A stretch of DNA of 64,000 nucleotides from a virus. How positions within the stretch are numbered: the stretch's first letter is position 1; each line of letters begins with the position of its first letter. The position numbers and the translations under genes are program-made. The stretch spans positions 28,258 through 92,257 of the IMG/VR virus record IMGVR_UViG_3300050821_018287. One strand, given 5' to 3'. Shown piece by piece: positions 2,975 through 56,071 of this stretch. The notes under the pieces were generated by a model, which did no database searches, was not told where the DNA came from, and was given only the letters and a program-made list of their open reading frames with translations.

Positions 2975-4360
2975 TTAGCCGTGCTCGATGGCGACGAAGC
3001 GCTTGTAGCGCGCGGCGTCGCCGGTGGTGGCGTCCGTCCGGATCGGCCAGTCACCCATGAACTTCCAGCTCGCGGACACCAAGTCCTGGAGCCGGTTCAG
3101 CGGCGAGCGGAGGAGGAGCTGGATGCGCTCGGTGTTCACCTCGATGCCGTTGTTGCTGATGCGCGGCTCGCCCACCTTCCCGGTGACACCGGCCTCGGTC
3201 AAGAGCAGCGCGAGGTCGATGTAGTACTCCATGATGCCGCCCTGGCCGGTGAACAGCGCCCGGTGGACCGGCACGGAGCTGGCGTTGAGCAGCTCTCCCG
3301 GGAACGGATCCGTGAGGATGTAGTTGCCGGACTTGTCGCCCACGGTCTCCTTCAGCGGCGACTCCGTGTTGCGGAAGAAGGCGACACCGAGGATGTAGCC
3401 GATGCCGAACTGCTTGTACATGAAGTAGTCCGGCAAGGACGTGTGGAGGCGCTGCCACTCGGGATCCGCGAAGATCTCCGACTCGGACGTCGGGTCCAGG
3501 TGGCAGTGGAAAGCGCCGTCGGTGTGCTCCGGGACGTTCTCCTGGCGCATGCGGGAGACCGCGGAGCGGACCGCCTGCATCGTGAGCAGCGAGCCCGCGT
3601 TGATCGAGTCGATCGAGTTGCCTCCGCCGACGCGCACTAGCACCGAGGCGTCGTTGGAGATGACCGGATCGCGGGAGGAGAACGTCTGCGCCACGTCGAG
3701 CGTCAGCGTTCCCGGCCCCACCTCATCCCCGGGGTTGGTCGAGGAGAAGCCGATCACGTTCACCGAGAGCGGCACGCCCGCGTGGATGATGTTGATGGGG
3801 AGGGGGTTGTTGCCGGTGACGACGCTGAACTGCACCGGGCTTCCCAGCGCCAGATCCGGCCGGCGGGAGCGGGTGAAGCCGTTCAGCCGGACCACCGGCA
3901 GCGACGTGGTGGCCGCGCCGGAGGCCGAAGCCACCGTGTTGCCCGACAGCGCCGCGTTGAACATCCTGTTGCGGACGATCCGGTTCAACGTCTGTCCCGC
4001 GGCGAGCCCGAGCTGCTGAGCGTTGCGCAGGAAGAGGTTGGCGATGGCGACGATGCTCGTCGGCATGTGGGTGTCGATCGTCTGCGCGTACTGCTGGACG
4101 ATCGCGTTCCACTGCTCCTCGGTGTACGTCTGAGGAATCGGGTCCTGGCCGGGGACGATGGGCTGTCCGTTCGGCGGGATGAGCCCGGTGCCGGTGAAGA
4201 ACATCGAATCACCGACGTTCCCCGGGAAGATGACGGGGGCTGCCTCGCCTCGGTACAACAAGCGGGGGAAGAGAGCATCATGGAACGCACGCTCCAGGAT
4301 TCCATCCTGCACCAGGGCGCGGATGTTGGGATCCTGGAGAATGACGGTAAAGTCGGCCAT
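2975..4360 (-). CDS. Major capsid protein
   Basis: 461 residues, the expected length for a capsid protein of the N4 gp56/P22-like broad group with HK97 fold. The N-terminal arm (residues 3-36) is DFTVILQDPNIRALVQDGIL and onward. The central part is rich in Ser, Thr, Gly and Asn. Around residue 280 there is FHCHLDPTSESEIFADPEW, resembling the conserved 'hP...ydl..dpew' strand-helix of gp56-like capsids. It follows the scaffold gene, and the ATG has a GAGGAG site. Inverted repeats flank the gene at 4377-4451 and 2925-2954. The N-terminal arm is copied in the small protein at 54581. Confidence 0.85.
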   Translation of the reverse strand: MADFTVILQDPNIRALVQDGILERAFHDALFPRLLYRGEAAPVIFPGNVGDSMFFTGTGLIPPNGQPIVPGQDPIPQTYTEEQWNAIVQQYAQTIDTHMPTSIVAIANLFLRNAQQLGLAAGQTLNRIVRNRMFNAALSGNTVASASGAATTSLPVVRLNGFTRSRRPDLALGSPVQFSVVTGNNPLPINIIHAGVPLSVNVIGFSSTNPGDEVGPGTLTLDVAQTFSSRDPVISNDASVLVRVGGGNSIDSINAGSLLTMQAVRSAVSRMRQENVPEHTDGAFHCHLDPTSESEIFADPEWQRLHTSLPDYFMYKQFGIGYILGVAFFRNTESPLKETVGDKSGNYILTDPFPGELLNASSVPVHRALFTGQGGIMEYYIDLALLLTEAGVTGKVGEPRISNNGIEVNTERIQLLLRSPLNRLQDLVSASWKFMGDWPIRTDATTGDAARYKRFVAIEHG

Positions 4361-4466: not shown

Positions 4467-5354
4467 CTAGGTCGGAACGGTCATCCCGCGCCTGCGGATT
4501 TCCGCTGCGAACTCAGGTCCCGACAGCTTCTTCACGTCAAGGCCGTTGCCCTTCCCGCCTCCGGCAATTTCCCCGGGCTTCGGAGGAGTCTGCTCTCCCC
4601 CCTTCGTCCCGGTTGTGGCGGGCTTCGTCACCTTTGGCGCTTCACCGAACAGGTACGGGCGATCCGTCTTGAGCTGTTCGAGCCACTTCGACTCGTCGAA
4701 CCCCTTCAGATCCTCCTCCGACTTCCCCTTCAACTCCGTGCGCAGGAGGAAGACGGCCACCGGAACATCCTTGACACCGGCCTTGTAGCAGGCGTCGCGG
4801 ATGGCCATTTCGGTCTCCGTACCTTCCTTCTCCCGCTCGGCCCGCTTCCGGGCTTCGGCCTCTTGTCGGGCCTTTCGAGCGAGTCCCTGACGCTCCTTGT
4901 CCCACTCCGCGCGGTCCCGCTGGTAGCGGGCCCAGGCCCGCCGGTCGTTCCGGCCTCCTGGGGGTGGCTTCGGCTCGCCGTTGGAGGTGGTGGTCTCCCG
5001 GGTCTCCCGGGTCTCCCGCCGCTCTCCGCCCTTCGGGGACGGAGCGGACAGCTTGGCCAGGACATCATCGAAGGACTGGAAGCCGGCCTTCTTGATCTTC
5101 TCCTGGAACTCCGCGAGCGCTTCCTTGCGTCCGCGGTCCTTGCTGTCGTCCAACCGCTTCTTCAGCGCCTTCGATGGGATGACGACGTTTTTCCCGTCGC
5201 CCACCACCGTATCGCCACCGGCTCCGGCAGCCTTCGCCGCCGCTGCCTTGTCTGCCGCTTCCTTCGCCGCCGCTTCGGCCGCTGCTGCTGCCGCTGCATC
5301 GGGTGGGGGAGGTGTACCTGCTCCTGGTCCTGCTCCGTCTTTCGCGTCCGGCAT
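4467..5354 (-). CDS. Capsid scaffolding protein
   Basis: 295 residues placed immediately upstream of the capsid gene, the classic scaffold position. The N-terminus (about 1-45) is Ala/Pro/Gly low complexity, residues 60-95 contain the charged helix 'ALKKRLDDSKDRGRKEALAE', the centre is strongly charged and predicted coiled coil (EWDKERQGLARKARQEAEAR), and the C-terminus is short and basic with RRRGMTVPT at the end. Highly charged, helical, Ala-rich composition is typical of scaffolds. Sequence-level homology to a named scaffold is not claimed. Confidence 0.7.
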   Translation of the reverse strand: MPDAKDGAGPGAGTPPPPDAAAAAAAEAAAKEAADKAAAAKAAGAGGDTVVGDGKNVVIPSKALKKRLDDSKDRGRKEALAEFQEKIKKAGFQSFDDVLAKLSAPSPKGGERRETRETRETTTSNGEPKPPPGGRNDRRAWARYQRDRAEWDKERQGLARKARQEAEARKRAEREKEGTETEMAIRDACYKAGVKDVPVAVFLLRTELKGKSEEDLKGFDESKWLEQLKTDRPYLFGEAPKVTKPATTGTKGGEQTPPKPGEIAGGGKGNGLDVKKLSGPEFAAEIRRRGMTVPT

Positions 5355-6506: not shown

Positions 6507-6704
6507 TTACCGCCCGCTGGGCGTCATCGGCCCGACGGTGAAGGGGGAGGGATCCGTGCCCTTCGGCATCTGGCTCTCCTGGAGGAGATCCTTCTGCGGC
6601 ACCTTCGCCACGACATCCTCGTACTTCCCGTGCTTCTTGTCGTAGGTCTCCGCCGCGTTGGGCGTCTCGCCTTGCAGGAGATCTTGGTTGGGGGTGTCGC
6701 TCAT
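6507..6704 (-). CDS. Small protein with YDKKHGKY motif
   Basis: 65 residues, hydrophilic and probably flexible. It contains ETYDKKHGKYEDV, which matches AYDSKHGKYDGSK in the 54-residue protein at 6730, and ends with DPSPFTVGP, like DTPFTVK at the end of the protein at 6907. The three look like diverged copies of one small protein. Function unknown; context is the head region. Confidence 0.6.
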   Translation of the reverse strand: MSDTPNQDLLQGETPNAAETYDKKHGKYEDVVAKVPQKDLLQESQMPKGTDPSPFTVGPMTPSGR

Positions 6705-6729: not shown

Positions 6730-6894
6730 CTACTTCCCGCCCTTCATGCTCAACGGCTGGTGGGTCTCGGCGCTCTGCTTGACGGCCTTCGCCTTCGCGG
6801 TCATCACCTTCGAGCCGTCGTACTTCCCGTGCTTCGAGTCGTACGCCTCGTGAGCCTTCGGGAGATCTCCGCTGACCAGATCCTCATTGCACAT
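6730..6894 (-). CDS. Small basic protein with YDSKHGKY motif
   Basis: 54 residues, MCNEDLVSGDLPKAHEAYD onward, ending in a Lys-rich tail (KAKAVKQSAETHQPLSMKGG). The ATG at 6894-6892 has GAGAG upstream and the stop is TAG at 6732-6730. It fills what would otherwise be a gap between two related small genes. The shared 'YD.KHGKY' supports reality despite the short length. Confidence 0.55.
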   Translation of the reverse strand: MCNEDLVSGDLPKAHEAYDSKHGKYDGSKVMTAKAKAVKQSAETHQPLSMKGGK

Positions 6895-28234: not shown

Positions 28235-28596
28235 GGCGCGTACCCCACTGCGCTCGCCTTGATCCGCGCGCGGAAGTCGTCGTCCGACTCCCCCGGCAAC
28301 CGAGACATCCCGTACAGGATGCCCGCGACGTTGAGCGCGTCCCCGGTCGTCGTCGGGGACAGAATGTCGTCGTCCCCGTCCTTGAGCCGCGCCTCCGCGT
28401 CTTCGGCAAGGATCTGCCGGTCCACCTCCGCGCGAGCCTCTTCGGGCGTGGCGAAGGTCTCGCCTGTGTCCACCACCACCCAGTTGTCGCCGATCTGGAA
28501 GACCGCGCGGAGCGGCTTCGGATCGTCTTGCCGGCGCCACCCACCCATCGCGAGTGACACCCACTTCCCGATCCGCTGTTGGTTGAAGAAGTACAT
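28231..28596 (-). CDS. Array paralog 10, with extra C-terminal tail
   Basis: 121 residues from ATG 28596 (TGATG), GTG 28599 equally possible. Body VFQIGDNWVVVDTGETFAT; helix TPEEARAEVDRQILAEDAEA, then a unique acidic tail ending ESDDDFRARIKASAVGYAP. The tail makes it the member with the longest region after the helix. Confidence 0.6.
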   Translation of the reverse strand: MYFFNQQRIGKWVSLAMGGWRRQDDPKPLRAVFQIGDNWVVVDTGETFATPEEARAEVDRQILAEDAEARLKDGDDDILSPTTTGDALNVAGILYGMSRLPGESDDDFRARIKASAVGYAP

Positions 28597-50181: not shown

Positions 50182-51531
50182 TTACCGCCGCGCCCCCCAC
50201 AACCACTCGCCCCGCCGCGCGAGATCTCGGAGCCTTGTTCGGGTCTCCTCGTTCTCCGCGCGCGCTTCGGCGCACCGCGCCTCGAAAGAGCCGCTGGGGA
50301 AGTAGCGCTCCACCACGGCTTGGATGTTCTTCCGCGTCGGATCCGGGAGCGTGCGGATCTCCCGGTCCATCGCAAAGTAGGCCGCCAGGATCGGCTTCGA
50401 CTTAGGGCCGAAGACGGTGCGCGTGACGGAATAGGTCAGCTCCTCCGAGTGGTACCAGCCGTGCTTCTCCAGGAGCCGCTTCGTGCTCCACACCCAATTC
50501 ATCCGCGGTGGGCTCGCCGCAGCGCGACTCGGTTGGTACTCCTTCCACTTGTCACAGGAGAAAGCGGCCCATCCCGCGGGAGCGATGTCGTAGCGCTCCA
50601 GAAGCTCCGCCGCGTCGAGGAGAGCCCGACCGGTGGAGGAGGTTGCGTTGACTCGGTACGGAACGTCCTTCGCGTCGAAGCGGCTTTGGACCGCGCCCCG
50701 GTAGCACCGAACGAGGATCGCCAAAGTCTCCTCCTCGGTTCGCTCCGGGGGAAGCTTCGCTGGGCGGGGGGTGTCGACCGGATTCAGATCGGGTAGTGGG
50801 AGGCGACCGCACTGGCCAGGAAGGGGGACGGGACGGACCCTCGGAGGATGCTTCTTTCCGCCGAATGCCTTTTCAAGAATTGAACAAATGGCGGCGTCGG
50901 ACGGCGAGCTTTGCGAGCCGGCGACTGCCGCATCGTTCCTATCTTCCGAGCGAAGCGAGGAAGTAGGAACGATCCTTGGAGGAGGTATGATCGTAATAGC
51001 AGTTACGTCCCCCCCTATAGTCCCCCCGACGGTCTCTTGAGACACACAAGAGACCGCGGTCTGTTGAACGTTTTTGGCGATCTCTTGAGGCGGCGCGGTC
51101 TCTTGAGGACCGTTGGCGACCTTCAAGAGACCGTCGTTTGCTTCAAGTGACCGCGCGGTCTTTTGCGGTTGGACGGCCTCTTGAGCGCGTCCGAACGCGC
51201 CCGCGCGCATCCCGCCGTGGTGGTTCATGCTTCCGAGTCTCATCCAAGATGCGGGTGGGATGGACACCGACCCGTCCTCTTCCCGCTCCCCGAGAAGCCG
51301 ATCAGCTTTGTCGAGGAGCCCGGCCGAGCGCAACCGATCCGTCACACGGCGCACGGAGTCCACCGTGGAGCCCGCTACGCGCGCCACCGCGCCGCGATCG
51401 ACCGGAACCCTACCGTAGCCGTCACGGTAGTACAGGAGGGCTGCCCAGGCCGCGGAGCACGCCTTGCCGAGGCGCCGGGTGAACTCCTCCCAAGGGACTT
51501 TGACGACTCCGCCGGAGAGGGAAGCGCTCAC
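50182..51531 (-). CDS. Replication initiator, O-like, with iterons inside the gene
   Basis: 449 residues from GTG 51531, overlapping a small leader ORF by 4 bases; a longer in-frame reading to 51627 lacks a good start. Residues 25-80 are a winged-helix/HTH (RVPVDRGAVARVAGSTVDSV, RRVTDRLRSAGLLDK). Residues about 116-167 are low complexity (QPQKTARSLE, GPQETAPPQE) because they carry the iterons. The C-terminal half contains YDIAPAGWAAFSCDKWKEYQ, NWVWSTKRLLEKHGWYHSEE. Layout matches lambda O: N-terminal origin binding, internal origin, C-terminal helicase contact. Confidence 0.65.
   Translation of the reverse strand: MSASLSGGVVKVPWEEFTRRLGKACSAAWAALLYYRDGYGRVPVDRGAVARVAGSTVDSVRRVTDRLRSAGLLDKADRLLGEREEDGSVSIPPASWMRLGSMNHHGGMRAGAFGRAQEAVQPQKTARSLEANDGLLKVANGPQETAPPQEIAKNVQQTAVSCVSQETVGGTIGGDVTAITIIPPPRIVPTSSLRSEDRNDAAVAGSQSSPSDAAICSILEKAFGGKKHPPRVRPVPLPGQCGRLPLPDLNPVDTPRPAKLPPERTEEETLAILVRCYRGAVQSRFDAKDVPYRVNATSSTGRALLDAAELLERYDIAPAGWAAFSCDKWKEYQPSRAAASPPRMNWVWSTKRLLEKHGWYHSEELTYSVTRTVFGPKSKPILAAYFAMDREIRTLPDPTRKNIQAVVERYFPSGSFEARCAEARAENEETRTRLRDLARRGEWLWGARR
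50233..50241 (-). promoter_or_regulatory. CGAACAAGG element
   Basis: Coding-strand CGAACAAGGCT inside the end of the initiator gene, 81 bases before the helicase start. Confidence 0.35.
51031..51184. repeat. Iterons, likely replication origin
   Basis: Nine copies of a 10-base repeat GGTCTCTTGA or its complement: 51031, 51046 (reverse), 51058, 51079, 51097, 51123 (reverse), 51143 (reverse), 51157 and 51175, with one to three mismatches in some. They lie inside the initiator gene, near a more AT-containing stretch (50985-51020). Same place as the iterons of lambda ori inside gene O. A direct-repeat origin is the best reading; spacing is not the uniform spacer of CRISPR. Confidence 0.6.
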
Positions 51532-51632
51532 GGCTGGTGGGCTCCACGAAAGCGCCCTGGGGCAGTAGCGTTCCCGGGAGGGAGTACCAAGGACCCAAGA
51601 CGCTTCCAGCGCGCCTTCGCGCAGCACACCAT
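51528..51632 (-). CDS. Possible 34-residue leader ORF before initiator
   Basis: ATG 51632 has a strong GAGGAG site (7 bases upstream) and the ORF ends TGA overlapping the GTG of the initiator. Sequence starts MVCCAKARWKRLGSLVLPPG. Only the ribosome site and GTGA overlap support it; the protein itself is featureless. Confidence 0.35.
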   Translation of the reverse strand: MVCCAKARWKRLGSLVLPPGNATAPGRFRGAHQP

Positions 51633-51732
51633 CGATACTCTCCTCGCTCCGTTGTCGAGAGAGCTGCCCACCCTCGCGACGGCTGACAGCTTATGCCGGA
51701 GCTTCTGGAAAAAGGAAAGGGTCCCGACGAAA

Positions 51733-51785
51733 AAACCGTGCTTGGATTTCTACAAGGAAAAGTCGAGGGTTGCGGCGCACGGTTT
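51733..51785 (-). terminator. Long-loop hairpin followed by T-run
   Basis: AAACCGTGC (51777-51785) pairs with GCACGGTTT (51733-51741) on the coding strand, followed by more T residues. The loop of about 35 bases is long for a factor-independent terminator. It starts at the stop of gene 51785 and fills the gap before the initiator. The rest of the gap (51633-51732) holds no gene I can see. Confidence 0.35.
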
Positions 51786-52075
51786 CAACGCTCCCCGATC
51801 AACGCCGCCCGCGCCCAGTGCGCCCGCACGCGCTGTTCCACTTCGCGCTTCGCCGTGGCGAGGCTCCGGAAAACGTTGTTGTGCAGTTCCGGCTCCCCCA
51901 ACACGAGCCCCAATGCGCGCCACCTACCGCCCTTCACCGGATCGAGCCAGGCGAGCGACACCCATTCCCCGGCGGAGTGGGGGGTGTCGCCGCGCTTCTG
52001 GAACACCCACGAGGTCAGCGCATCGTCGGCGTCCTTGGGACCCTTGTCCTGCGTCCAGCGCGTCTCAGGGCTCAT
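51785..52075 (-). CDS. Paralog of the small-protein array
   Basis: 96 residues from ATG 52075 (ATGA). Body TSWVFQKRGDTPHSAGEWVS, LAWLDPVKGGRWRALGLVLG; helix VFRSLATAKREVEQRVRAHW followed by ARAALIGER. Same F-x-S/T helix as members 8-15 of the array at 25-30 kb, here 22 kb away. Confidence 0.6.
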   Translation of the reverse strand: MSPETRWTQDKGPKDADDALTSWVFQKRGDTPHSAGEWVSLAWLDPVKGGRWRALGLVLGEPELHNNVFRSLATAKREVEQRVRAHWARAALIGER

Positions 52076-52320
52076 GGGATGTCGCTCTCTTCTGAGGCAT
52101 CCCAATTCAGCGCCCAGCGGTCCTCATCCTGGGCCAGCCGCTCCGCCGTGTTTCGAGCGATTGCCGCGAGGCACGCCTTGCACGTTACCTTGGAAACGTC
52201 CGCTGTCTTCAAGGCCCGCTTGCGGTCCTCGGACGTAATCGCGTCGAGCCAGTTGCGCGCGATCAACCCGCACATCATCGTGATGCCGGGTGGGTAGAGA
52301 GGGAAGTGGACCTTCTTCAT
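52072..52320 (-). CDS. Small Cys protein, paralog of 55865
   Basis: 82 residues from ATG 52320 (ATGA). KVTCKACLAAIARNTAERLA aligns with LVTCNGCLEALARDTVRRLE of the gene at 55865, and both begin with M(K/R)K..FP. One CxxC. Function unknown. Confidence 0.6.
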   Translation of the reverse strand: MKKVHFPLYPPGITMMCGLIARNWLDAITSEDRKRALKTADVSKVTCKACLAAIARNTAERLAQDEDRWALNWDASEESDIP

Positions 52321-52631
52321 TCGCAAAGCCTCCGGCGGGTGTCCTCTTCTGCCGCCCACACCAACTCTTGCATCTCGTCCCACCAGCGGCGACGCCGGTT
52401 GTTCTCCACCCACTCCTCGAAACGGACGACGAGAAGCGAGAAGGACGGGCGCTTGCGCGTGAAACGGTACAGGCAGTCGTTGCAGAACACCCGGTACACC
52501 TCACTGGGGGGCTGAAAGACGACCCAGCGCCCGTTGAAAGCGAAGATGTGCTCCGCGGCGCACCCCCAACAAAGCGACTCCGACGTAAGGTTGACCATCC
52601 CGGGGCCGGGATCGCTGAGAGTAAGGCTCAT
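52317..52631 (-). CDS. Cys pair, helical-tail small protein
   Basis: 104 residues. CWGCAAEHIFAFNGRWVVFQ and YRVFCNDCLYRFTRKRPSFS provide two CxxC pairs, likely one zinc. The C-terminal helix (DEMQELVWAAEEDTRRRLCE) ends like the small-protein array. Confidence 0.6.
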   Translation of the reverse strand: MSLTLSDPGPGMVNLTSESLCWGCAAEHIFAFNGRWVVFQPPSEVYRVFCNDCLYRFTRKRPSFSLLVVRFEEWVENNRRRRWWDEMQELVWAAEEDTRRRLCE

Positions 52632-52846
52632 CCGCCGAGCCTCCGACGCGCGTCCGTTGCGGTGAGGAAAGCGTCAACCTCCTTCGCCCACTCCACCCAG
52701 TCTCGGTAGGACAGCTCGAACCCCATCGCCTCCGCGACAGCGCGGGCGCGGGACAAGCATCGATCGCAGAACATCGTCGTCTGCCCCGGCCAAAAGGCGA
52801 TCCACCGCGCGGTGTCACCACAGTCTTTCGAATCGCAGAGGTTCAT
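52628..52846 (-). CDS. Small two-CxxC-like protein with terminal helix
   Basis: 72 residues. NLCDSKDCGDTARWIAFWPG and TMFCDRCLSRARAVAEAMGF, then helix WVEWAKEVDAFLTATDARRR. Similar to 52317 in layout. Function unknown. Confidence 0.6.
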   Translation of the reverse strand: MNLCDSKDCGDTARWIAFWPGQTTMFCDRCLSRARAVAEAMGFELSYRDWVEWAKEVDAFLTATDARRRLGG

Positions 52847-53106
52847 CCGCCGAGCATCTTTCTCGCAGCCCAGGCCTTGGAGACCTCCTCACACCAGGCC
52901 ATGCCCTCCGCGAGGGTCTCAAAGCTCGCCTCGCGGATCTCATCCTCGAAGAAGCACGCGTGAAAGAGCGCGGATTGCCCGAGGTTCGGGTACTGGAGCA
53001 CCCAAGCGATGCGGTGGTCTCCGTAGGTGAAGTACCAGCGGTGATTATCGTCTCCGCCACGAACATCGTTGTCCCACCAGAGGCCTTCCGGCTCCGACAG
53101 CGGCAT
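52843..53106 (-). CDS. Paralog of the small-protein array
   Basis: 87 residues from ATG 53106 (TGATG with the helicase). Body GGDDNHRWYFTYGDHRIAWV; helix SFETLAEGMAWCEEVSKAWA, ARKMLGG. The F.T...A...E pattern matches the 25-30 kb array. Confidence 0.6.
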   Translation of the reverse strand: MPLSEPEGLWWDNDVRGGDDNHRWYFTYGDHRIAWVLQYPNLGQSALFHACFFEDEIREASFETLAEGMAWCEEVSKAWAARKMLGG

Positions 53107-54575
53107 CACCCCTCCAGCGTGAAGCCCAGAGGCATCTGCTGTAGGTCCAGCACCTCGTGCCCCTCGGAGACGTACGCCTTGATGCGGGCGCGTCCGTGCT
53201 TCTCCAGCCACGGGTTGCCTTCGTCCCGGATGTCGTAGACCTCGAAGGAGGTTTTCCCCTCACTCACCCGCATCCCGCGGCCGATCCGCTGGAGGGCGGC
53301 GATGATGGACTTCCCTCCGCTCCCCACCACCACCGAGCGGAGCTGGGGGATGTCCACGCCCTCCTGAAAGATGACCGAGGAGATCAGCACCTCCGTGTGC
53401 CCGGAGACGAGCCGGGAGATGGCGCGCTGGCGCTCCTTCGTCGTGTCCGAGCCCCAGACGAATTCGGCTTTCAATCCCACCTCGCGCAGCTTCCGGTGGA
53501 GGAGCTTCCCGTGGTCAATCTCCTTCACGAAGACGAGGCAGGGCTTGGCCGCGCGCTTCGCCAAGTCCGCCAGCGTCCCGTTCCGCAGGGGGCTCTCCAC
53601 GACGCACTCCCGGTAGACCTTCTGCCAATCGCGCTCCGTCCACCAGGAGGCTTCCTGCTGCACGCGCACGAGGCGGATCCGCGGCTTCGACAGGACACCT
53701 TCCTTGATGAGCAGCTCGGGGCGGATCGAATAGATGACCGGCCCGAGCGCCCCGACGGCGAGGATGGAGCGCTGGTCGGTGCGGGCGAGCGGGGTGCCGG
53801 AGAGGCCGACCCGGTAGTAAGCCGGGCAGCTCATCGCCACCTTGTAGAAGCTGCCCGCCGGCAGCGTGTGGCACTCGTCCACGATGAGCCCTTCGGTTGC
53901 GCGGAGGAGATCTCCCGCCGGAGTCGGCCACACCGCCTCCGTGACGTGGGTCAGCCCGTCCCCGCGCTCAACGCGGACAATCCGGGCCTTCTTGCGCTTC
54001 CGTTCGCGCTCCAGCGCCGCGTAGAGCGTCTGGAACGTCGCGACGGTGAAGCGCTGAACGTCCCACTGCCCGTCGCCGATCCGCCCCGCCTTCTCGTTCA
54101 ACCGCTTCTCGAAGCGCTCTGCCGCCTGCTCCAGAAGGTTTCCCCGGTGGACGAGGAAAAGCCACCGGCACCAGAGCATGCTCGCGAGGCCCGTGGCGAT
54201 CTCCGTCTTCCCCGCGCCAGTGGGCGCCTTGACGATGCCGCGCTTCCGCGCGACGACCGCCAACACCGCGTCGAGCTGGTACTCCCGGAGCCAGTCCAGG
54301 TGGGAGTCCTTCGACGCCTTCGGGTTGCAGACGGGCTCCCGGTTGTCGCCCACCTCGATCGTGACTCCGGCCTCCTTCGCCGCCTTTTGGATGAGGGGGA
54401 GGAAGCCGGTGGGGAAGGTCTGCTCCACGAGGTGGAACAGGTGGATCTTCTCCCCGGCGCGCCCGCGGTGGTAGGCGGTGGCGTCGTCGAAGGCGAGGTA
54501 GTGCCGGAGCCAGGCCACCTCTTCGTCCGTCGCGCGGGTGACTTTCGTGTTGAGGTTACGAACGTCGAGCCACAT
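53106..54575 (-). CDS. SF2 DNA helicase, UvsW-like
   Basis: 489 residues. Motif I APTGAGKTE, motif II VDECHT (DECH), motif III LSGTP, motif V SSVIFQEGVDIP and motif VI ALQRIGRGMR. N-terminal 100 residues have the extra region HLDWLREYQLDAVLAVVAR (Q-motif-like). Branch migration or restart helicase, as T4 UvsW. Likely coupled with recombination proteins. Confidence 0.85.
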   Translation of the reverse strand: MWLDVRNLNTKVTRATDEEVAWLRHYLAFDDATAYHRGRAGEKIHLFHLVEQTFPTGFLPLIQKAAKEAGVTIEVGDNREPVCNPKASKDSHLDWLREYQLDAVLAVVARKRGIVKAPTGAGKTEIATGLASMLWCRWLFLVHRGNLLEQAAERFEKRLNEKAGRIGDGQWDVQRFTVATFQTLYAALERERKRKKARIVRVERGDGLTHVTEAVWPTPAGDLLRATEGLIVDECHTLPAGSFYKVAMSCPAYYRVGLSGTPLARTDQRSILAVGALGPVIYSIRPELLIKEGVLSKPRIRLVRVQQEASWWTERDWQKVYRECVVESPLRNGTLADLAKRAAKPCLVFVKEIDHGKLLHRKLREVGLKAEFVWGSDTTKERQRAISRLVSGHTEVLISSVIFQEGVDIPQLRSVVVGSGGKSIIAALQRIGRGMRVSEGKTSFEVYDIRDEGNPWLEKHGRARIKAYVSEGHEVLDLQQMPLGFTLEG

Positions 54576-54580
54576 TTGGG

Positions 54581-54817
54581 CTACCCCTTTTTGGGCTTGT
54601 ACGTCAGCGTCGGGAAGACCGAGGTGTGGAAGGCTTTCTCCAGGATGCCCTCCTGGACGACCTTCCGGATCGCCGGGTCGCTGAGGATGACGTTGAAATC
54701 GGGGCCGGAGCGCGGTTCCGCCTTGAGCGCTTCGAGTGCCTTCTGCGCCTGCTTCGCGAGGCGGCGGCGCCGAAGGAGCCGAGCGCGTTTCTGCGTCTGT
54801 CGGCGGGAGAGGCTCAC
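54581..54817 (-). CDS. Basic protein carrying a copy of the capsid N-terminal arm
   Basis: 78 residues from GTG 54817 (GTGA). Residues 1-30 are Arg-rich (SLSRRQTQKRARLLRRRRLA). From about residue 41, DFNVILSDPAIRKVVQEGIL aligns with residues 3-22 of the major capsid protein (DFTVILQDPNIRALVQDGIL), and the match continues (LEKAFHTSVFPTLTY against LERAFHDALFPRLLY). About 22 of 34 positions are identical. The protein ends right after the arm. Possibly an assembly regulator, decoy, or cargo tag. Located in the early region far from the head genes. Confidence 0.75.
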   Translation of the reverse strand: MSLSRRQTQKRARLLRRRRLAKQAQKALEALKAEPRSGPDFNVILSDPAIRKVVQEGILEKAFHTSVFPTLTYKPKKG

Positions 54818-54999
54818 TTTTCCGGTCTCAAAGTGAGGTCCATCGTGATGAAGTCGGCGGGAGCTGGCGTCCGAACGCGGGCGATCACATTCAACACGTC
54901 TCCCATGATCGACTCGATGGAGATCTTCGTTCCCGGAGGCAGCCGCTTCTCCAGCGACTTCGTGAGTGGCTCCAACGTCGAGCCCAAGACCTGATTCAC
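54814..54999 (-). CDS. Small protein
   Basis: 61 residues from GTG 54999. LEPLTKSLEKRLPPGTKISI and ESIMGDVLNVIARVRTPAPA give mixed helix/strand. Good third-position GC. Ends in GTGA with the capsid-arm gene. Upstream 55000-55110 has another basic reading frame (GTG 55114, SRRRLQKRRGRSPDARKRQQ) in the frame of gene 54581. Confidence 0.55.
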   Translation of the reverse strand: MNQVLGSTLEPLTKSLEKRLPPGTKISIESIMGDVLNVIARVRTPAPADFITMDLTLRPEK

Positions 55000-55110
55000 G
55001 TAAACGCACCGTCGCGCCCGGATCCCCGAGCGCGAGGAGGGATTGTTCCCTCTGCTGACGCTTGCGCGCGTCGGGTGAGCGTCCTCGCCGCTTCTGGAGG
55101 CGCCGCCGGC

Positions 55111-55359
55111 TCACAGCACCTCCGCCCACATATCCGCCCAGAAAGCCTTGCAGAGGCGCTCACAATCGCCGCAGAGGACGCGAAGCCGGTTCATCTTCTC
55201 GTCCACGTATGCCGTCTCCACCGGCACCTCGAAGCCGGGTTTTCCACACCGCTCCTCGAAACCTTCACACGGACCCGCGGGCAGTCGTCCCCCGAGCGCG
55301 ACGAGCGCCGTGTCAGCCATCGCGCGGCGGCGCCACGCTTTGGAGCGCTTCGACCTCAC
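55111..55359 (-). CDS. Small Cys-rich protein
   Basis: 82 residues from GTG 55359. Cys at PCEGFEERCG and VLCGDCERLCKAFW; likely one zinc site. Basic N-terminus (RSKRSKAWRRRAM). Confidence 0.55.
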   Translation of the reverse strand: MRSKRSKAWRRRAMADTALVALGGRLPAGPCEGFEERCGKPGFEVPVETAYVDEKMNRLRVLCGDCERLCKAFWADMWAEVL

Positions 55360-55613
55360 TTCTTCCTCGGGACCAGATCGACTTTGATGTGCAGGCCCAC
55401 CGCGTCGAGAACCTCCGCCACGGTGTAGATGGTGGGGTTCTTGCTTTGGAGAAGCTGGGCAACACCTTGTCGGGTGATCTGGAGCCGGCGCGCCAGCTCC
55501 GCCCGCGTCAAGCCCTGCGCCAACATCGCCTCCTTCACCATTGCGAAAACCTGCTCGGCGAGCCGCACCGCTTCCTTCTTCGCTTCCTCCTTCAGCTCCG
55601 CGCGCGCCCTCAA
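55356..55613 (-). CDS. Cro/C1-type HTH regulator
   Basis: 85 residues from TTG 55613. HTH: MLAQGLTRAELARRLQITRQ, GVAQLLQSKNPTIYTVAEVL, with conserved 'LT..eLA..l.itr..v..ll'. Coupled to the excisionase-like gene. Likely early transcription regulator. Confidence 0.75.
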   Translation of the reverse strand: MRARAELKEEAKKEAVRLAEQVFAMVKEAMLAQGLTRAELARRLQITRQGVAQLLQSKNPTIYTVAEVLDAVGLHIKVDLVPRKK

Positions 55614-55843
55614 GCGTCCAACCCCAGAAGCTTCACCGCCTCCGGATTCTGCTCCCGGAAGTAGCGGATGAGGGAGGCCCACTCCACGTACCACCGGCCG
55701 CCGACACGCACTCCGTGGACCTTCTTCTCGTCGATCCAGCTCCGGATCGTCGTGGTGGTGAGGCCCGTCTTCTCCGCGACTTGGGGCGTGGTGACGTAGC
55801 CCTTTTTCGCGAGGATGGCCTCTTGGTTAGGCTTCTCGTCCAT
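55610..55843 (-). CDS. MerR/excisionase-like HTH protein
   Basis: 77 residues. YVTTPQVAEKTGLTTTTIRS, WIDEKKVHGVRVGGRWYVEW: winged-helix of the HTH_17 type. Starts 9 bases after a CGAACAAGG element. Confidence 0.7.
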   Translation of the reverse strand: MDEKPNQEAILAKKGYVTTPQVAEKTGLTTTTIRSWIDEKKVHGVRVGGRWYVEWASLIRYFREQNPEAVKLLGLDA

Positions 55844-55864: not shown

Positions 55865-56071
55865 TCATAGTGATTCCTCAAGCCGCCGCACCGTGTCCCG
55901 CGCGAGCGCCTCCAAACACCCGTTGCACGTCACCAGCGCGCGATCCTCGACGCACTGGATGCCCCGCTTCTGGGTGCGTTCATCCGCCTGGAAGCGGTTG
56001 AAGCACCACGTTATCTTCTCCCAGAGCGTCTGGGAGCGGAGGAGGTGGACGGGGAATTTGGCCTTGCGCAT
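55865..56071 (-). CDS. Small CxxC protein, paralog of 52072
   Basis: 68 residues. VTCNGCLEALARDTVRRLEE matches the protein at 52072. The N-terminus is basic (RKAKFPVHLLRSQTLWEKIT). Function unknown. Confidence 0.6.
   Translation of the reverse strand: MRKAKFPVHLLRSQTLWEKITWCFNRFQADERTQKRGIQCVEDRALVTCNGCLEALARDTVRRLEESL

Follow-up and report, generated by a model that had tools for sequence, protein, structure and literature searches.

A small basic phage protein that carries a free-standing copy of the capsid N-terminal arm

Introduction

Most of the small modulators of phage head assembly that are known imitate or replace the scaffold. The scaffold has a docking site of its own on the coat: in P22, scaffold residues R293 and K296 bind coat residues D14, E15 and E18 (PMC9965877), in 80alpha the C-terminal helix of the scaffold sits on helix alpha-1 of the N-terminal arm (N-arm; PMC5644958), and in SPP1 the scaffold binds the N-arm helix of the major capsid protein (MCP; PMC6813328), a role that has also been stated in general form (PMC12749128). 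In the portions of these papers drawn on here, the arm in P22 (gp5/gp8), SPP1 (gp13/gp11) and 80alpha is always part of the MCP, and no free-standing arm is described. Here we analyzed a stretch of 64,000 nucleotides (the window), positions 28,258 to 92,257 of the 92,257-bp IMG/VR virus record IMGVR_UViG_3300050821_018287, in which a 78-residue gene that we call mini encodes such an arm on its own. What mini copies is this N-arm domain, up to the boundary of the E-loop.

The closest natural comparison is Ccm of SaPIbov5 (PMC8569155), which like mini is a second capsid-derived protein beside the true capsid protein and acts in assembly. Ccm has a complete HK97 fold, forms pentamers, is satellite-encoded and redirects assembly, whereas mini comprises the N-arm only, joined to a basic helix, and is phage-encoded. 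SaPI1 CpmB, P4 Sid and PLE TcaP (PMC5644958, PMC10945586) are small coat-binding proteins that alter assembly, CpmB through the N-arm-helix site; they are satellite-borne and mimic scaffolds or cage the shell from outside, whereas in mini the arm itself is copied. The internal proteins of T4 (PMC3012670) are small cargo (mature IPI* has 76 residues) that a short tag directs to the scaffold core; they form a diverse and host-specific set in which the capsid targeting sequence alone is conserved. That tag is not known to be copied from a capsid arm, and packaging of mini is our inference.

Results

Mini resembles the N-arm of the phage's own capsid protein

The features on which the comparison depends are:
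54581..54817, minus strand: mini, 78 residues, basic helix plus stand-alone MCP N-arm (alignment, coding score, self-trained gene call)
54590..54700, minus strand: N-arm copy, mini residues 40-76 against MCP residues 3-39 (22/37 identical, z 11.8)
54719..54805, minus strand: predicted Arg/Lys-rich helix, mini residues 5-33 (AlphaFold2 helix, charge)
2975..4360, minus strand: MCP, HK97 fold, 461 residues (phrog_1357 major head protein, E 3e-13)
4244..4354, minus strand: MCP N-arm residues 3-39, source or sister sequence (alignment, arm profile)

Mini residues 40-76 aligned to MCP residues 3-39 without gaps and with 22 of 37 positions identical. The ungapped BLOSUM62 score of this alignment was 118, against a mean of -37 (standard deviation 13.1) and a maximum of 24 in 100,000 shuffles, which corresponds to z = 11.8. 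Within the genome's own gene set, the mini-MCP pair was the top similarity between any two different genes (BLASTP, E about 1e-11), and when all 92 kb of the record were searched in six frames, the match came back at E 4.5e-11 and there was no third copy of the arm. A profile for which only MCP arms of other phages were used (66 arms) recovered mini at E 8e-16; the match after it had an E of 1.3. Homology of the mini arm to the capsid N-arm is thus well supported by alignment. The closest MCP arms were practically tied in score (own MCP 118, L031 119, L033 118), so the source of the copy may have been an ancestor of this phage or a close relative.

An earlier note on this DNA had described a small basic protein with an Arg-rich start that copies the capsid arm, some 50 kb from the capsid gene and adjoining a helicase. 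That description holds: the match is real and passes the shuffling, mini lies 50.5 kb from the MCP gene with the helicase ATG 5 bp off, and residues 1-38 carry a charge of +10.5 (about +12.6 for the whole protein, with an isoelectric point of 11.5). The match extends over 37 positions without gaps, 22 of them identical (about 22 of 34 in the note), and the break that had been placed at GIL-LEK is not real.

AlphaFold2 models were used to place the boundary of the copy. The MCP model (mean predicted local distance difference test score, pLDDT, 81; 59-75 in the arm region) matched HK97-fold phage capsid proteins in the PDB with a best E of 1.5e-10, the N4 capsid and HK97 being among the matches; the match of the MCP to the N4-gp56 model TIGR04387 was weak and below the cut-off. 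Its predicted arm consists of helices at 5-9, 11-18 and 21-29 and a short helix at 35-38, followed by an E-loop strand at 41-44 and a spine helix at 103-137. The mini model has a long basic helix at 5-33 and then helices at 42-46, 48-58 and 60-67, which roughly match the first three helices of the MCP arm (the blocks within residues 1-30 have a pLDDT of 85-96, the block 31-40 has 68). Mini's last residue corresponds to MCP residue 41, where the predicted E-loop strand begins. By these models the copied piece is the arm and no more (MCP 3-41), which agrees with the proposal that the copy stops where the arm ends. A fold search with the mini model against viral models gave no match, and a PDB sequence search with mini returned nothing meaningful.

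Selection appears to have kept the arm helix and released the linker

At the nucleotide level, the arms of mini and MCP are 59% identical. Of the 37 arm codons, 23 agree in their first position, 27 in their second and 15 in their third, and different codons encode 12 of the 22 residues that are identical. No valid synonymous divergence (dS) was returned, as expected for saturated synonymous sites. With its diverged codons and the least agreement at third positions, the arm shows what is expected of an old duplicate whose protein sequence has been conserved.

Conservation is not even along the arm. In positions 1-25, mini is 72% identical to its own MCP, close to the median of 76% between MCPs of different phages, whereas in the 12-residue linker at positions 26-37 it is 33% identical, against 83% between MCPs. 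Across the 66 MCP arms together with that of this phage, 12 columns in positions 1-25 are at least 95% conserved, and mini retains 10 of them; in positions 26-37 it retains 1 of 4 such columns. These two contrasts provide good support for an arm helix (mini 40-64) that was retained by selection while the linker (65-76) drifted. The helix appears to have been retained for its capsid contacts, and the hinge to the shell domain to have been released.

Mini looks like a genuine gene

Two genes flank mini directly:
53106..54575, minus strand: superfamily 2 helicase, 489 residues, directly downstream (phrog_16 E 3e-74; ResIII, Helicase_C)
54814..54999, minus strand: 61-residue gene directly upstream, for which library scans and relative searches found no relatives

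Mini starts with GTG at 54817 and stops at 54581, and its protein sequence is MSLSRRQTQKRARLLRRRRLAKQAQKALEALKAEPRSGPDFNVILSDPAIRKVVQEGILEKAFHTSVFPTLTYKPKKG. Its coordinates had earlier been given without a strand; they are correct, and the strand is minus, the one that holds nearly all genes of the record. The GTG start and the stop codon of the upstream gene overlap as GTGA, and the helicase ATG follows the stop of mini at the spacing given above. Scored with codon usage learned from the long open reading frames of this genome, the mini frame reached +27.7 and the opposite strand -1.9, and a self-trained gene caller retains mini as a gene. Given the positive coding score, the GTGA overlap and the 5-bp spacing, mini looks like a real gene; an untranslated frame was among the objections foreseen in the earlier note, and the frame looks coding.

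That mini comes from only one metagenomic record leaves some room for a chance resemblance, a recent assembly artefact or a decaying pseudogene, all of which we consider highly improbable. A chance match was rejected on the z of 11.8, and the intact frame, with a start and a stop fitted to both neighbours, and the codon-position constraint speak against this group of explanations as well. An arm nucleotide identity of 59% is not that of a recent copy, and against a chimera stands that the head and helicase modules, though distant, recur together in relatives; a simple recent duplication or assembly artefact was rejected. Seven of 64 related records also carry most of the helicase, mostly tens of kb from the MCP as here.

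The scaffold offers a candidate partner for the arm

The head module contributes two further features:
4467..5354, minus strand: head scaffolding protein, presumed partner of the arm (phrog_194 E 2e-7; PF06810 34.4 bits, cut-off 35)
4479..4541, minus strand: scaffold C-terminal motif LDVKKLSGPEFAAEIRRRGMT, presumed MCP-docking helix (conserved among relatives)

The scaffold gene lies upstream of the MCP gene. In 38 relatives its product ends in a short basic motif of 21 residues close to VDARKMSPQEFQALLRKRGLN, which in this phage reads LDVKKLSGPEFAAEIRRRGMT, and the stretch preceding the motif is strongly variable. Such conservation at an otherwise variable C-terminus fits a docking helix and is an independent sign that scaffold and arm meet here as they do in the phages cited above; the motif is probably the helix with which scaffolds of this family dock on the MCP. 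There is no second copy of it in this genome. The acidic MCP arm residues D19 and E23 are kept in mini as E56 and E60 and could face the basic scaffold motif.

Mini occupies a variable slot and has no second example so far

One further gene delimits the surroundings of mini:
55610..55843, minus strand: MerR/excisionase-like helix-turn-helix (HTH) gene (HTH_17)

In some relatives this HTH gene abuts the helicase directly. In this phage the slot between the two (54581-55613) holds four small genes, with mini as the last. The same slot is empty in two relatives (G001, G021) and holds a 94-residue Cys/His-containing protein in a third (G017) and a 130-residue Lys-rich protein in a fourth (G019).

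The same arrangement was sought in related phages, as the earlier note had proposed, and did not turn up: each of the 64 related records (14 reached via the MCP, 50 via the arm) has exactly one arm, that of the MCP, and the only relative of mini is the MCP. A lack of relatives had been named in the note as counting against the proposal, and this part of its check did come out so. The whole of mini as a query found nothing in viral contigs, bacterial and archaeal genome contigs, phage records and plasmids, of which many are fragments. With the arm profile, the best 80 of 145 matches in viral contigs were normal MCPs or MCPs cut by a contig end, and there were none in bacterial and archaeal genome contigs. 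A DNA pattern for LEK-type arms gave a single match, an MCP, and another for arms that lack the Asp following FH in the MCP gave none.

Mini could be an exapted fragment of a past partial duplication that now works outside head assembly, for instance as a nucleic-acid-binding accessory of replication, with the arm as a structural helix only. Such an origin would suit a gene that adjoins the helicase and a ParB-like gene, has a strongly basic N-terminus and occurs in one phage only. An unrelated role would not, however, predict that the helix keeps 10 of 12 MCP-invariant residues while the linker drifts, and we regard this explanation as rather unlikely.

Mini lies apart from the head genes, among the helicase and HTH genes and in a slot whose content varies among relatives, and this position would also fit an inhibitor or timer of assembly. 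The free arm would then compete with the MCP arm for sites on the scaffold or the neighbouring subunit and delay or abort assembly, either early in the phage's own cycle or as a dominant negative against a superinfecting relative. A binding helix freed of its shell domain is what a competitive inhibitor classically looks like, and MCP arms are so conserved across the family that one peptide could hit many relatives. Defence by blocking virion assembly has a precedent in Tab (PMC10884400), which is phage-encoded, as mini is, and interferes with assembly, as mini would as an inhibitor; Tab targets tail assembly and nothing in the literature drawn on here suggests a capsid origin for it, whereas the mini arm is capsid-derived. 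The carrier phage would be inhibited too unless timing or partner specificity differs, and no prophage carrier was found in the bacterial genomes searched. We consider an inhibitor unlikely.

A gene in a variable slot might, finally, encode a decoy whose arm titrates a host immune sensor of nascent capsid protein or the arm-binding factor of a capsid-hijacking satellite. Capsid-sensing immunity is known from CapRel-SJ46, which binds newly made MCP (PMC9712102), and the 80alpha scaffold and SaPI1 CpmB compete for the N-arm helix (PMC12749128, PMC5644958). Neither a sensor nor a satellite of this kind is known for the host. Binding of MCP activates CapRel, and a free piece that it recognizes might set off the sensor instead of blocking it; a decoy also leaves the basic helix unexplained. 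A decoy is therefore improbable, and the satellite version raised in the earlier note found no specific support.

We also compared mini with known classes of protein. Relative to an HK97-fold MCP it has the N-arm and lacks the E-loop, the spine helix and the P- and A-domains, ending at the equivalent of MCP residue 41. It gave no match to scaffold family models (PF06810/phrog_194), and the phage's scaffold is a separate gene (4467-5354). The record encodes its own terminase, portal, MCP, scaffold and DNA polymerase, whereas a satellite that redirects capsid size is without head genes of its own, and mini had no match to PADLOC defence models at E <= 0.01. Mini thus falls outside the capsid proteins, having no shell domain, and, as judged by family models, outside the scaffolds; it is neither a satellite factor nor a listed defence protein. 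In size (78 residues) and basicity (isoelectric point 11.5) it fits a T4-type internal head protein; library model scans gave no match, with no explicit comparison to T4 sequences made.

Other features of the region were noted in passing. About 1.06 kb at 50725-51784 is without a predicted gene in an otherwise packed genome, and within it a GGTCTCTTGA-like motif recurs several times at 51027-51168, in direct and in inverted orientation; the gene-free stretch is possibly a replication origin or an operator array. No Rfam match was found in 50600-55200. The small proteins at 52072-52320, at 55865-56071 and at record position 2246-2500 (left of the window) are mutually similar and form a scattered paralogous family. 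The adjacent small genes 6507-6704 and 6730-6894 resemble each other in their N-terminal part (58% over 24 residues) and add another partial duplication in this genome.

Discussion

We tentatively favor the view that a tag of capsid origin directs mini to the assembling head, as an internal protein or as a co-factor of assembly, and give this somewhat less than an even chance. The gene would have formed by joining a copy of the MCP N-arm (residues 3-41) behind an arginine-rich helix of 38 residues. By analogy with the phages above, mini probably grips the partners that the MCP arm grips in head assembly: its arm helix would dock on whatever binds the MCP arm during procapsid assembly, foremost the scaffold, through its conserved basic helix at the C-terminus, and/or a neighbouring subunit, through its groove. 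Mini would thereby ride into the growing procapsid, or modulate it, carrying a helix of about +10 charge that would meet DNA or the scaffold core. The binding partner, the place in the head and the contact with nucleic acid are the steps that go beyond an arm helix under selection. Of the roles proposed in the earlier note, an assembly regulator and a packaging tag both fit the anatomy of mini and the published scaffold-docking role of N-arm helices. T4 internal proteins are a precedent for head cargo addressed by a tag, and their diversity and host specificity would be in keeping with a gene seen only once, in a slot of varying content.

Several observations weigh against a role as an internal head protein or assembly co-factor. 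The neighbours of mini are helicase, HTH and ParB-like genes and not head genes, so co-expression with the head genes is not assured, and these surroundings are more in keeping with an early or regulatory role than with a structural one; for that reason we give no function a majority. Mini is so far a singleton, and its single occurrence speaks against a core role in assembly. Relatives of its basic N-terminus were sought and none found, in a search run without a positive control, and both AlphaFold2 models are of single chains.

A free-standing N-arm encoded by the phage itself would be new relative to the open-access literature searched, in which we found no report of one (subscription papers and preprints lay outside this scope); the interest of the finding is tempered by its single occurrence. 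Stated more broadly, and held a shade more loosely than the view given above, mini may combine a free-standing address tag, or brake, with a nucleic-acid-binding helix, and enter or control the procapsid by imitating the coat protein.

N-arm helices are the scaffold docking site in several phages and, in the portions of the literature drawn on here, have been studied only within the capsid protein. A natural, selected free arm would be a test of whether the arm alone is enough for scaffold binding, procapsid entry or a block of assembly. It would also reveal a route by which phages make small head proteins from pieces of their own coat, and would supply a natural cargo tag for phage capsids.
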